Source: Phycisphaerae bacterium (lineage in GTDB: Bacteria > Planctomycetota > Phycisphaerae > UBA1845 > CAIVHJ01). From it: a DNA stretch of 64,000 bases. The stretch covers positions 87,807 to 151,806 of the forward strand of contig JAJVHX010000012.1 in assembly GCA_022072405.1 (NCBI GenBank), read 5' to 3'. Of the stretch, positions 8,746-59,522 are shown piece by piece. Positions within the stretch are counted from its first letter, which is position 1; every line of letters starts with the position of its first letter. The position numbers and the translations under genes were made by a program. The notes beneath the pieces were generated by a model. That model was not told the DNA's origin. It saw only the letters and a list, made by a program, of their open reading frames with translations, and ran no database searches.

Positions 8746-10533
8746 ATGACCAGTTGGACGATCATTCAATTTCTGATTTACCTGGCGGTATTGCTCCTGT
8801 GTGTAAAACCGTTGGGTAGTTATATGGCCGGCGTGTATGAAGGGCGGCTGTCGCGGCTGGGAAAACTATTCCACCCCCTTGAAAAACTGATCTATCGGTT
8901 GGGGGGTATCAAAGCCGATCTCGAGATGAACTGGAAGCAGTACGCGACTGCCATGCTGATGTTTCACGTGGCTGGCTTTGTCGTGCTTTACCTGATCCAG
9001 CGTTTTCAGGGTATGCTGCCATTAAACCCCGCACAACTGGGGGCGGTGACGCCGGACTGTTCGTTCAATACTGCGATCAGTTTCATTACCAATACCAACT
9101 GGCAGGGTTATGGTGGTGAAACCACCATGAGCTATTTCACGCAAATGAGTGGTCTGACGGTGCAGAATTTTGTTTCGGCGGCATCGGGTATGGCCATTCT
9201 GGTGGCCTTGATTCGAGGATTCGCCCGTAAACAAGCGAACAGCATTGGTAATTTCTGGGTCGATCTGACCCGCTCGACGGTTTATATCCTGCTGCCGTTG
9301 TCTATTGTTTTGACGCTGGGGCTGGTTTCACAGGGCGTGGTCCAAACCATGAAGCCCTATGTGTCGGTCGCGCTCCTCCAGCCGGTCACCATGGATCAGC
9401 CCAAACTCGATGATCAGGGACATCCGGTCAAGGATACCGATGATCAGCCGGTCATGGAACAAGTGACCATCAAAGAACAGACCTTGGCGGTCGGTCCGGC
9501 TGCGTCGCAGATCGCCATCAAAGAACTGGGCACGAATGGTGGAGGATATTTCAACGTCAACTCCGCTCATCCGTTTGAAAATGCCACGCCGTTATGTAAT
9601 TTTCTGGAAATGCTCTCCATTCTGTTGATCCCGGCGGCGCTCTGTTACACCTTCGGAAAGATGGTCGGTGATACGCGGCAGGGATGGGCGCTGCTCATCA
9701 CCATGGTGGTTGTATTTGTAGCCGCCTGGGTGGGTTGTCAAATGGCCGAACAAAACACTCATCCACAACTGGCTAGTCTGGGTGTCGATACGGCCGTCGG
9801 CAACATGGAAGGCAAAGAGGCGCGCTTCGGCGTAGCCAATTCCACGATCTGGGCCACGGCGACCACCTGTGCGTCGAATGGATCGGTCAACTCGATGCAC
9901 GATTCATATACCCCGCTGGGCGGGTTGATTCCCATGCTACTTATGCAACTTGGAGAAGTGATCTTTGGAGGTGTCGGTTCCGGATTATATGGTTTGCTGG
10001 TGTTCGTCCTGATCACGGTATTTATCGCCGGCTTGATGGTGGGTCGAACGCCGGAATATCTGGGCAAGAAAGTTGAAGCCTTTGAAATGAAAATGTCTTC
10101 GCTGGCGGTTCTGGCCCCGGCTCTTGCCGTATTGGTCGGAACAGCCATCGCGGTGATGACAACCCAGATCAACGCTTCAATATGCAATCCGTTGCCGCAT
10201 GGTTTTTCGCAGGCGCTTTACGCGTTTTCTTCAGCCTCCAATAACAACGGCAGCGCATTTGCCGGATTCGGCGCCAACAATCCCACGATGAACCTGCTCC
10301 TGGGACTGGTCATGCTGCTGGGCCGCTTCTGGGTCAAGATTCCGGTGATCGCCCTGGCAGGGGCACTGGCGTCCAAGAAATATGTCCCCACGACAGACGG
10401 CACGTTGCCGACGCATACGCCGCTGTTTATTGGGTTACTCATCAGTATGGTACTGATTGTGGGCGCGTTGATTTTTATTCCGGCGCTGGCGCTGGGGCCA
10501 ATCGCCGAGCACATGGAAGTGTTTGCAGGATAA
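8746..10533 (+). CDS. kdpA: Potassium-transporting ATPase subunit A
   Basis: Selectivity-filter-like segments and KdpA signatures (KPLGSYMAGVYEG, LGTNGGGYFNVNSAHPFENATPL). Confidence 0.97.
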   Translation: MTSWTIIQFLIYLAVLLLCVKPLGSYMAGVYEGRLSRLGKLFHPLEKLIYRLGGIKADLEMNWKQYATAMLMFHVAGFVVLYLIQRFQGMLPLNPAQLGAVTPDCSFNTAISFITNTNWQGYGGETTMSYFTQMSGLTVQNFVSAASGMAILVALIRGFARKQANSIGNFWVDLTRSTVYILLPLSIVLTLGLVSQGVVQTMKPYVSVALLQPVTMDQPKLDDQGHPVKDTDDQPVMEQVTIKEQTLAVGPAASQIAIKELGTNGGGYFNVNSAHPFENATPLCNFLEMLSILLIPAALCYTFGKMVGDTRQGWALLITMVVVFVAAWVGCQMAEQNTHPQLASLGVDTAVGNMEGKEARFGVANSTIWATATTCASNGSVNSMHDSYTPLGGLIPMLLMQLGEVIFGGVGSGLYGLLVFVLITVFIAGLMVGRTPEYLGKKVEAFEMKMSSLAVLAPALAVLVGTAIAVMTTQINASICNPLPHGFSQALYAFSSASNNNGSAFAGFGANNPTMNLLLGLVMLLGRFWVKIPVIALAGALASKKYVPTTDGTLPTHTPLFIGLLISMVLIVGALIFIPALALGPIAEHMEVFAG

Positions 10534-54817: not shown

Positions 54818-56311
54818 TTGATGAGCATGAAAGTAATACTCTGCATCATGACTGGCTGGTTATCAGGTAGTTTGCAGTTTGCTGCCCCCGAAGCTCCGTC
54901 GCCGGAGACGGCTCCCGTAGCCACGCAACCGGCGCGGTCCGGTAACGGGTCGATGACTGCCGACCAGCAACGTGAAGATCTGAACCAGCTACAGCAGTGG
55001 TTGCAGCAATATTATGCCCGTGTTGACCAGCCGGGCTATGACTGGGCAGCAGCCTTGCAGCAGTGGCAGCAGTCAATCACTACCGAACAGCCGATTGATC
55101 AATTTATCAGGCAGGCAGTCGAATTTCTGGGCGGATTTGGTGATCGGACGCTCAAAGTGGGTAACATACGTGAGTTGCTGCCGCCGGGCTATCTGCCGGC
55201 CAACCTGCAGAAAATGGATGGTCGGTGGGTGGGCCTGAAGCTCGATTTTACGAATCTGCTGCTCAATGAATATCCCTATGTGACGCGTATCGATGGCCGG
55301 CCGATCGATGAGTGGATTGTCGCCGCGCAGGCCCAGGGGGCGGGTTCGGGTACGGCGGCGGAGGCATGGTTGGCGGATCGGTTGCGCTGGAGTGCAGCCA
55401 TCCGTCAAAGTCTTGGACTGGAGCCCAAAAACTGGATCACTCTGGAATTATCCAACGGATCGGATCCGCCGCAGTCCGAAGGAATCACGTTGACTCTGCT
55501 GAATCGTTTTGCCAGCGGTGATCAGTTTCGACCGCCGGGGCTGCGGGCCAAATCACAACGCCGACCGGACAACATCGGCTATGTGCGCTGGAATGATCTC
55601 GCCACAGCCAGTAATAGCAAGGTGCTTGATGAAATCATGCATCAAATGCAGGGAACGACGGGGCTGATCCTGGATCTGCGGGGTTCGGCGGATCAGCAGA
55701 TTGAACGCGTACCGCACCTGCTCAGTTATTTTCAACCGACCGAGGAGCCGTTGCGGATTGTGGCGGTGATGAATTATCGTTTGGCCGATCCCGCCGCACC
55801 GCATAGCACCGAAGGATATCTGTCCGCCTGGGGTTGCTATCCGCTCACTTCGACTCGATGGAATAGTGCGGAACGGGCGATGCTCGAAGCTCATGCACGA
55901 ACCTTTAAGCCCACCTGGTCAGCTGCGGCGGAACAGTTCAGTGCGCCGCATTATCTGGCGGTACGGCCGGGATTGACAACTGCCGTGTACCACTATCCCG
56001 CACCTGTCATCGTGCTGGTCGACGAGCGAACCAAAGGTGCTGCTGAACTGGTGGCCATGGGTCTGCAGGGTCGGCCGCGCGTCATGCTGGCAGGTGCGAC
56101 CACCGCCGGTGAAATCTGCTGGCGGCGGACGTTCCAATTGCCCCATAGCGGTCTAACCATTCAACTGCCGGCTGTGAATACTTATTTTCCCGCCGGCCGC
56201 TTGTTCGATGAGACCGGAATCACCCCGGATCTGCAGATGATGCCGACCTTGACTGATCTGACCGGCAAAACAGATTCCCGTTACGACTGGGCGGTTAAGC
56301 AACTGAAGTAG
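54818..56311 (+). CDS. S41 (C-terminal processing) peptidase-like secreted protein, catalytic residues apparently lost
   Basis: GLILDLRGSADQQ, VIVLVDERTKGAAELVAMGLQGRPRVMLAGATTAGE; Ser/Lys positions replaced. Confidence 0.7.
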   Translation: MMSMKVILCIMTGWLSGSLQFAAPEAPSPETAPVATQPARSGNGSMTADQQREDLNQLQQWLQQYYARVDQPGYDWAAALQQWQQSITTEQPIDQFIRQAVEFLGGFGDRTLKVGNIRELLPPGYLPANLQKMDGRWVGLKLDFTNLLLNEYPYVTRIDGRPIDEWIVAAQAQGAGSGTAAEAWLADRLRWSAAIRQSLGLEPKNWITLELSNGSDPPQSEGITLTLLNRFASGDQFRPPGLRAKSQRRPDNIGYVRWNDLATASNSKVLDEIMHQMQGTTGLILDLRGSADQQIERVPHLLSYFQPTEEPLRIVAVMNYRLADPAAPHSTEGYLSAWGCYPLTSTRWNSAERAMLEAHARTFKPTWSAAAEQFSAPHYLAVRPGLTTAVYHYPAPVIVLVDERTKGAAELVAMGLQGRPRVMLAGATTAGEICWRRTFQLPHSGLTIQLPAVNTYFPAGRLFDETGITPDLQMMPTLTDLTGKTDSRYDWAVKQLK

Positions 56312-56409
56312 TTGAAGTAATCGCATCGCGCGAGTTTCTAACCACAGAAATGAATAACACCGCTCAACAGATGCGCTCTCGAGCGGTGTTGTCCATATTC
56401 GAGCAGCAG

Positions 56410-56619
56410 CTAATTGATAGAGAGCATAAAGCACATCCAATATTCATTGCTATGATGCAACAGTTTATGAATCGGGTTGTCCGGTTGGACGGGCTGCTGA
56501 CAATACTCACTGTGACAGGATCGGCTGATATCGGCGCATTCTGGGCAGCCGCTGCCCATGCAAGTGCCGGTGCCCGCTCCGGCGATCCATGCCAAATCCG
56601 GATCACTGAGATTCCGCAT
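56410..56619 (-). CDS. Cys-rich small peptide with double-glycine-style leader (RiPP-precursor-like)
   Basis: Internal Met of ORF 56410..56703: MRNLSDPDLAWIAGAGTGTCMGSGCPECADISRSCHSEYCQQPVQPDNPIHKLLHHSNEYWMCFMLSIN. Confidence 0.45.
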   Translation of the reverse strand: MRNLSDPDLAWIAGAGTGTCMGSGCPECADISRSCHSEYCQQPVQPDNPIHKLLHHSNEYWMCFMLSIN

Positions 56620-56759
56620 GGTCTCTTTGCCTAAATGTAATCGAGAGGTTGTTTTACGGCTCAAAGCAGGTCTCCATATAAAGGTGAATAAAATACATGA
56701 CATGTCTGCATATAGTATCGAACCGAATCGCCGCTAAAGCAAATATATTAGAATGGTTC

Positions 56760-59522
56760 TTATCTTTCGGCTGGCTTGACTGAGGCAATTTCGTTAACAG
56801 GCCAGGGCAGATCGGGCATATAGACGCCGGTGCGATGAATGTCGATGGCGACGACTTTGGCGACGTCAGGGTCGGTTGAATCGAAATAAATGTTGTAGGT
56901 ATAGGGCAGTTCCCGGAAGCTGAGCACGCTCCAGCCGGAGTCCGGCGGCGGAAAATCCTGCGGAAAATCAGATTGTTCGCGGAGCTTCTGTCGGGCCAGA
57001 ATCTGGCGGACCTCGTTATAAGGCTGGCCGCGCTCCACACCCAATAACTGCTGCTCAAAGTTCCCGCGCACCCGGCACCAGTCAATCTGATCATTCTCAC
57101 GATCAAGCCGATAATGCAGTTGGGCACCATCGCCCAGATACCAGACATCCGACCATTTGCCGAAATCCAGTTGATAGGTGGGCTGCCCCAGCAGATGATT
57201 CAATCGCGCCAGCCGACTGCCGGCTTGTTCATTTTCACCCGCCTGGGCAGCCAACTGCGGATCGAGCAACAGCGTGCTGGGATAAAATATTTCGCGGTAA
57301 TCCAGACCGGCTTCACCCCAGGAGCGATGCTGTTGATAAACGGTTCGCCGGATCAGACCTCGGCGGTTGATATGAATGCAGGCGGGACCTTCGATCCCGA
57401 AGGCTTCCAGCAGGGGTTGTTCGATCCGTTTTTTGGCAATCAGGCGGTCGGCAATGGGATCAGGTTTGAGCTGCACTTCGTAATAAAAGTGGCCGCGCTT
57501 TTCCCAGGCTGCCCGTTCCTGGCGATATTCTTCCAGGTAGACCGAATCCGGAATGAAATTGAGCAGGATTTCCCGGCCGGCGAGCGTATCCTGGGTCACC
57601 GACATTTTGTCCGACAGCAGCAGCGTGAAATGAGGAGTCGGCTGGCCGACGATCACATTATTGAAGGGATTGTCCACCAGGCGCAGCTGCGTGATACCGA
57701 AGGTCACATTCAACTGATTTCGGCGGGCCACCTGCCCCACCAGTGGACCGATCTTCACCAGTTCGGTGAGAAACGCATTGCGACGGGCCGGATTCTCCTG
57801 GTCTTTCCAGCAATCCAGCAGTGCCATAATCGCCGCGTCATCCTGAGAAGTCACCATGCTGCACAGGGCAATGAACGCCTGGGTCTGCAGCGCCGTCGAT
57901 TCAGAGTTGAGCAGCGGTAATAGAGTCGGAATCGCATCGCGGCCCTCCGTTCCCAGTCGCGCCAGGATCTGCAGTAATTCCATTTTTCCATTGATCTCTT
58001 CGGGAGGCAGTGCCTGGAGATTATTGATCAGTACCGGCACCACCTGTCGAACTCGAGGCCCCAGCGACCAGATCGCCTCCCACTGTCGATCATCAACCAA
58101 TTGTTTCAGATCGACCCCTTGTGGTACATCACCGGCAGAATCACCGCCCTGCTGCACGATCAGCCAATCCTGTAATACCGCCTGTTCGGAGTAGACCAGA
58201 TCCATCTGCAGCCAGTTCAACTGCTGCTCCTGATCGGCCACCTGCGGATCATTCAGGTACTCCGGTTTCAGGGGCATTTTCCCACTGCCATCAAACAGTA
58301 TGGTTTCGGTTTGCGGGCTGACATAGGCAACCAAGCCGCTGTCAAACGCCAGATAAGCATCACCCAGCTTGAGCAGCGGGGCGGCGTAGCTGAAGATGCG
58401 ATCCTCGAGCGAATATTGCAATTGACCGAATTTTATCCGCTGGTCGCGCGGGACGCGGTTCCAGTCGAGCATCGGTACGCCCAGCTTCTGTGAATTCTGG
58501 AAACACACTCCCAGATACTCGAGTTTCCATTTCAAAGCTTGTAATTGGCGTTGATAATCAGTGGTAGGCTGTTGTTGCGGTTCAAGCCCGACACGGTTAC
58601 CGCCCTGCAACCCCAGCGTCAGCCGATCCTGGATCAGCTTCAGTACCTCGCCCCGCCAATGCTCCCGTCGACTGTCGAGTATTGCGTCACGGCTGGCCTG
58701 CGCCGGCGAAGCCATCGGCCCGCCCGGGTGATGTTTCAGTATCAAATCCAGCATCAATAAGCGGCGTCCCGGCGGTTCGATCTGATCGACCTGTTGCCAT
58801 TGCTTGTCCAGCTCTGATTGGGCTTCATCAACGTGCAGGCCACTGGGGAACTGCTGCAGATAACTCCCCAGTTGATCCAGGTAGATCAGGGGAGCCTGGC
58901 TCTGAACAGTCTGAACTTTCTGCCACGCCGCCTGATCAGCTGCCTGCTGCTGCTCTGCCATTTCCCGGGCGATATCGATATGGCTGCCGCGAGGATGCAG
59001 TTCCAGGTAGTCATGGACCAGATCGCTCTGGGTCGTACCGCTGCTCTGAGTGACCGCGGCCCACAGTTGTTGCTCGTCGGCGCGTTGCCGTGATCCCCGC
59101 CACAAATAGCCAATGGTTAACCCACTGCCCAGTAGCAACAGGCCCGCGCCAATCAACAGCAGTCGCTTTTGCTGAGGTTTGAGCGGTTTACGGACCCGGC
59201 GGGTTTTTTCCGATCGAGGAAATTTGGTGCGTGGTAGATCATAAGCCATGACCACCAGGCTGGGGGTGGTTCGGCCGCTGCGGGTGTCATATCCGCAACG
59301 CACGCAGATGATGGCTTCTTCCGGAAGGGGTTGACGACATTGCGGACAGTTCGGACCCATCTCAGGTACGACCGGACCGGCTTGTGCTTCTTCGAATGTG
59401 GGGATGATGAAACGGTGACCGGAATATTTGCAGCGGGCGTTTTTTCCGGCGTAGTGGGGGCTGAACTCATGGGTTCTGCCGCAGCGGCAACGCACCAGGA
59501 TGTGGCCATTGGATTGTGACAT
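56760..59522 (-). CDS. Large protein: N-terminal zinc ribbons, TM segment, HEAT-like repeats, degenerate redoxin-like region
   Basis: CPQCRQPLPEEAIICVRCGYDTRSG; TM LLLIGAGLLLLGSGLTIGYLW; HEAT-like LLQILARLGTEGRDAIPTLLPLL; VGQPTPHFTLLLSDKMSVTQDTLAGREILLNFIPDS. Confidence 0.7.
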   Translation of the reverse strand: MSQSNGHILVRCRCGRTHEFSPHYAGKNARCKYSGHRFIIPTFEEAQAGPVVPEMGPNCPQCRQPLPEEAIICVRCGYDTRSGRTTPSLVVMAYDLPRTKFPRSEKTRRVRKPLKPQQKRLLLIGAGLLLLGSGLTIGYLWRGSRQRADEQQLWAAVTQSSGTTQSDLVHDYLELHPRGSHIDIAREMAEQQQAADQAAWQKVQTVQSQAPLIYLDQLGSYLQQFPSGLHVDEAQSELDKQWQQVDQIEPPGRRLLMLDLILKHHPGGPMASPAQASRDAILDSRREHWRGEVLKLIQDRLTLGLQGGNRVGLEPQQQPTTDYQRQLQALKWKLEYLGVCFQNSQKLGVPMLDWNRVPRDQRIKFGQLQYSLEDRIFSYAAPLLKLGDAYLAFDSGLVAYVSPQTETILFDGSGKMPLKPEYLNDPQVADQEQQLNWLQMDLVYSEQAVLQDWLIVQQGGDSAGDVPQGVDLKQLVDDRQWEAIWSLGPRVRQVVPVLINNLQALPPEEINGKMELLQILARLGTEGRDAIPTLLPLLNSESTALQTQAFIALCSMVTSQDDAAIMALLDCWKDQENPARRNAFLTELVKIGPLVGQVARRNQLNVTFGITQLRLVDNPFNNVIVGQPTPHFTLLLSDKMSVTQDTLAGREILLNFIPDSVYLEEYRQERAAWEKRGHFYYEVQLKPDPIADRLIAKKRIEQPLLEAFGIEGPACIHINRRGLIRRTVYQQHRSWGEAGLDYREIFYPSTLLLDPQLAAQAGENEQAGSRLARLNHLLGQPTYQLDFGKWSDVWYLGDGAQLHYRLDRENDQIDWCRVRGNFEQQLLGVERGQPYNEVRQILARQKLREQSDFPQDFPPPDSGWSVLSFRELPYTYNIYFDSTDPDVAKVVAIDIHRTGVYMPDLPWPVNEIASVKPAER

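Follow-up and report, generated by a model that had tools for sequence, protein, structure and literature searches.

A predicted class I lanthipeptide precursor among 23 scattered genes that may share one LanB/LanC/C39 set in a Phycisphaerae bacterium

A short gene on the minus strand of a 64,000-nucleotide stretch of DNA from a Phycisphaerae bacterium (hereafter the window; C2:87807-151806 of its genome) is predicted to encode a class I lanthipeptide precursor whose processing would take place in trans, by a LanB/LanC/C39 set that it shares with other precursors; to this reading we give a probability of about 0.8. The gene belongs to a scattered family with a common leader, the genome holds a single enzyme set of this kind, and in other genomes similar leaders are linked to LanB. 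Binding of the leader, dehydration and ring closure of the core, export of the product and any biological activity it may have are inferred.

The precursor gene and its surroundings

The first-pass annotation placed a Cys-rich peptide at 56619..56410 (minus strand), which is indeed encoded there with 5 Cys within 21 residues. Translation probably does not begin at the ATG at 56619, which would be Met16 of a leader starting 15 codons upstream, and the AAAGAGA cited as an element ahead of that ATG actually encodes leader residues K13-E14-T15. In the alignment of the window DNA with a paralogue on contig C5, similarity extends upstream beyond this ATG; the C5 gene starts with an ATG 15 codons upstream of the equivalent position, preceded by AAGGAG, and the window has at the same place a TTG (56664-56662) with GGAG (56675-56672) ahead of it. 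The upstream similarity, the C5 start and the TTG preceded by GGAG make 56664 to 56410 (minus strand) the most likely extent of the gene, and the peptide is most likely MSRKTTSRLHLGKETMRNLSDPDLAWIAGA|GTGTCMGSGCPECADISRSCHSEYCQQ..., of 84 amino acids. The features of this region are as follows.

54818..56311, plus: gene for a peptidase S41 protein, convergent to the precursor gene
56356..56391: stable hairpin (fold z = -5.1 on one strand and -5.2 on the other)
56410..56664, minus: probable precursor gene of 84 codons and a stop, beginning with TTG (from the frame, the paralogue alignment and the leader model)
56413..56499, minus: C-terminal core part, Ser/Thr-poor, non-conserved, of uncertain status
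56500..56574, minus: Cys-rich core part GTGTCMGSGCPECADISRSCHSEYC, residues 31-55, candidate ring region (GTGTCxGSGCxxCA common to the C5 paralogue)
56575..56664, minus: predicted leader peptide MSRKTTSRLHLGKETMRNLSDPDLAWIAGA, residues 1-30, GA cleavage site at its end (conserved in 23 paralogues; GA end in other members too)
56672..56675, minus: GGAG, probable ribosome-binding site, 7 bases before the TTG, matching the place of AAGGAG in the C5 paralogue
56760-59522, minus: gene for a 920-aa protein with weak zinc-ribbon-like and HEAT-like matches, upstream of the precursor gene

The leader carries the motif SRLHLGKETMRNLSDPDLAWIAGA, and the core contains 6 Ser, 2 Thr and 6 Cys, with T32, T34, S38, S47, S49 and S52 together with C35, C40, C43, C50 and C55 as candidate modification residues. 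The previously described hairpin AACACCGCTC/GAGCGGTGTT at 56356..56391 is present (RNA fold z = -5.1); situated between the converging precursor and S41 peptidase genes, it may do no more than terminate transcription of one or the other. Neither the S41 peptidase nor the 920-aa neighbour resembles RiPP machinery. Scans of the 69-aa peptide against Pfam and NCBIfam, and of the 97-aa frame against Pfam, gave no matches; the window member does not match the class I lanthipeptide leader model NF038153, and the Nif11-type leader family is absent from the NCBIfam and Pfam matches of both the window member and its C5 sister.

A family of 23 precursors with a common leader

The gene had been taken for an orphan and the absence of homologues named as grounds for doubting it, whereas a paralogue search of the source genome (G000; 28 contigs totalling 3.57 Mb, completeness 93.7%) revealed 22 paralogues, giving a family of 23 members. 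An initial search retrieved the C5 gene (E 3.4e-5; residues 1-38 are 51% identical); a third match, on C10 (E 0.47), was set aside, no leader-bearing frame being seen there. The C5 paralogue passes NF038153 (25 bits, cut-off 22), a model that matches 20 places in the genome, five of them at or over the cut-off (the C5 sister and four more). A leader model made from 20 members of this genome recovers 23 precursors (E 2.6e-15 to 1e-5), which occupy ~15 sites spread over nine contigs (C1, C2, C3, C5, C6, C8, C12, C14 and C16), some in tandem pairs or triplets. A start codon is present in 22 of the 23, and a purine-rich GGAG-type site precedes nearly all. The exception, at C6:237664-237750 (plus strand), has no in-frame ATG, GTG or TTG near its leader; this would be explained by the gain or loss of one base within a run of G, through assembly error or decay.

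The leader consensus of the family is ..KLxLxRETVRxLxxxxLxxxxGG or GA, and the cores that follow are unlike in length and pattern, with 17.8% Ser, 9.1% Thr, 5.0% Cys and few charged residues. Leader residues shared between members are encoded by different codons in 62% of such pairs, and the window gene and its closest paralogue give dN 0.33 and dS 1.66 over the leader and first 14 core codons, from which it follows that what is conserved is the protein and not just its DNA.

One LanB, one LanC and one C39 exporter

The genome has one LanC-domain protein, one LanB and one C39 peptidase, all at one locus on contig C2, the sole matches to PF05147, PF04738 and PF03412 lying at C2:360-367 kb. The locus comprises the following genes.

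C2:359011-360000: HlyD-type protein
C2:359993-362209: C39-ABC exporter
C2:362372-363307 (L014 3373-4308, plus): aldo/keto-reductase-like protein, between the C39 exporter and LanC
C2:363325-364635: LanC, 436-aa stand-alone (PF05147, 130 bits)
C2:364687-368043: LanB, 1118 aa (PF04738, 523 bits; PF14028, 207 bits)
C2:368040-368732: peptidase S51 protein

LanB carries both dehydratase domains, for glutamylation and elimination, in one protein and matches the MibB and NisB structures, and LanC keeps the WCYGD and CHG motifs that provide zinc ligands. A class II LanM synthetase is absent, the only LanC-domain protein of the genome being the stand-alone LanC of 436 aa. For lanthipeptide enzymes and the C39 exporter, the earlier statement that the window holds no maturase or peptidase-ABC transporter is confirmed, all domain matches falling outside it. 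The proposal of a leader-bearing RiPP precursor is well supported, with a revised start, without its orphan status, and with maturase and exporter located elsewhere in the genome and pointing to class I.

The 40 kb of sequence read around the LanB/LanC genes contains no leader-bearing frame; the nearest precursor is ~35 kb away and the window gene 215 kb. Enzymes at this distance, serving 23 precursors at ~15 sites, would have to act in trans. In class I chemistry, LanB binds the leader, glutamylates Ser and Thr via glutamyl-tRNA and eliminates the glutamate to give dehydro residues, LanC adds Cys to these to form thioether rings, and a C39 domain cuts after GA or GG as the exporter secretes the product. 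By analogy, the sole LanB of this genome would recognise the leader and dehydrate core Ser and Thr, the sole LanC would join the dehydrated residues to Cys in (methyl)lanthionine rings, and the sole C39-peptidase ABC exporter, with its HlyD-type partner, would cut after GA or GG and export the product.

The aldo/keto-reductase-like neighbour of LanC has no Pfam match and weak matches to aldo/keto reductases, and its AlphaFold model is too poor for use (mean pLDDT 39.9). Another planctomycete (L116) encodes a 54% identical protein immediately ahead of its LanB gene, and a LanB contig of a third (L117) contains a partial match; the neighbour of LanC is a possible tailoring enzyme. The C-terminal tail of LanB, KKLTLKKAEAVEGGASS (L014 ~8993-9041), resembles the precursor leader and is absent from the LanB of a relative (G001).

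Linkage of the leader to LanB in other genomes

The leader model applied to other genomes was built from sequences of the window's genome only. From other named genomes, 39 LanB loci were fetched with a two-sequence LanB alignment, LanB alone as query having returned none, and 22 of the 39 contain a short frame that the leader model picks up at E up to 0.05, in many cases close to LanB or LanC. They include Archangium (4.5e-13), Paenibacillus (3.2e-11 and 2.1e-11), Acidobacteriota (5.7e-10) and Streptosporangiaceae (2.3e-9); roughly half of the 22 matches are weak, with E between 1e-5 and 0.04, and among the loci that lack a match several are short contigs.

Across the sampled planctomycetes, such leaders occur only where LanB does. 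At the level of the order, leaders and LanB were found in the same 2 of 61 genomes, and at the level of the phylum, leaders were found in 3 of 294 genomes, each of them one of the 7 that carry LanB (in 6 of these above the cut-off), these counts resting on few positive genomes and being uncorrected for kinship; the other 4 of the 7 yielded no leader at E 0.001. Two planctomycetes have precursors near LanB, namely G263 (two, ~0.7-1.0 kb away) and G351 (one, ~2 kb away). G001, which belongs to the same family as the bacterium studied here, encodes five precursors, of which four surround the genes for its C39 exporter and HlyD (63% and 45% identical). Its LanC and LanB form one open frame of 1540 aa (L070 4195-8817, minus strand) on contig C145, away from the C39/HlyD contig; C145 matches CAIVHJ010000145.1 of an uncultured Phycisphaerales bacterium. 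None of the other named LanB loci retrieved showed this LanC-LanB fusion, though several of them are truncated.

Alternative explanations

That the window ORF is a chance frame with some Cys residues appears extremely improbable. Such Cys richness is no rarity here: of the window's 472 frames of at least 60 codons, 15 have at least 5 Cys in 21 residues, and Cys richness was for this reason rejected as evidence. The leader, unlike Cys density, exceeds chance: with a model built without the window gene and without its closest paralogue, the gene scores 21.7 bits, whereas the next window frame reaches 6.1 and none of 12 shuffles exceeds 8.3; the gene has E 4.1e-11 with the 20-member model and 5.9e-7 in a leave-one-out version. 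A chance frame would also not be expected to have a homologue differing from it by many silent codon changes. A GG/GA leader and a C39 exporter in the genome would likewise fit an unmodified double-glycine peptide, either class II bacteriocin-like or a signal, that merely uses the exporter. We regard this as very unlikely, since the leaders track LanB across other genomes and phyla, the C39 exporter belongs to the LanB/LanC locus, and the C5 sister matches the lanthipeptide leader model NF038153.

More weight, though still modest, attaches to the view that the window copy is a decaying family member, which is no longer made or modified or is frameshifted in its second half. Decay or a frameshift is suggested by the TTG in place of an ATG start, the GA site, and a Ser/Thr-poor second half whose +1 frame after CHSEYC is richer in Ser, Thr and Cys; the Ser/Thr share of the core is the lowest but one among the 23, and its net charge is -3. 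However, all 84 codons are open, GGAG stands ahead of the TTG, and the protein-level constraint over the leader and first core codons speaks against decay, so that a precursor processed in trans remains the preferred reading and a decaying copy an unlikely one.

Comparison with known systems

Class I precursors normally adjoin LanB and LanC. The present system resembles class I lanthipeptides (nisin, the MibB system; leader model NF038153) in its full-length LanB, its LanC with zinc-site motifs, its Ser/Thr/Cys cores and a leader of the KLxLxKETxxxL..GG type, but it differs in having 23 scattered precursors, none of them in the enzyme locus. The LanB loci of Myxococcota, Paenibacillus, Acidobacteriota and Streptosporangiaceae (L074-L112) encode LanB proteins that are mostly 40-53% identical and homologous LanC proteins, in many cases with a similar C39 exporter, and their leaders match the same model; within the DNA fetched, however, they have one to a few precursors near LanB. 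With double-glycine class II bacteriocins the family shares the GG/GA leader end and the C39-peptidase exporter, whereas here the genome also encodes lanthipeptide enzymes, to which such leaders are linked.

Natural lanthipeptide systems in which one enzyme yields many products are known for class II enzymes. Scattered precursors sharing one such enzyme have been described as the prochlorosins and synechococsins of marine cyanobacteria, in which a single class II LanM (ProcM or SyncM) serves precursors with Nif11-type leaders (PMC10783134). The present family is similar in its many scattered precursors, common leader, unlike cores, and one modifying system with a peptidase exporter, and differs in its separate class I LanB and LanC and in its leader family. 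It seems reasonably likely, with less confidence than for the processing of the window gene itself, that we are dealing with a class I counterpart of the prochlorosins, in which one substrate-tolerant LanB/LanC pair processes 23 precursors that are scattered and differ in their cores, in a Phycisphaerae-related bacterium, a relative of which has a LanC-LanB fusion. We found no description in the open-access literature of scattered class I precursors with shared enzymes, in planctomycetes or Phycisphaerae or with a fused LanB-LanC, which does not prove that there is none. If the proposal holds, precursor mining restricted to the surroundings of the enzymes would miss such systems, and a class I example would permit a direct test of the tolerance of a tRNA-dependent dehydratase for widely different cores and would supply promiscuous class I enzymes for peptide libraries.

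Cores with a single cysteine

Eight of the 23 cores (L035, L036, L037, L039, L040, L042, L049 and L051) have one Cys and 9 to 26 Ser, and with a single Cys they cannot be mostly lanthionine-bridged; their main change may be extensive dehydration or dehydroalanine reduction. Several of them begin with VLWSxFWC or LLWSLDGSYIYC and end with SYxISTI.
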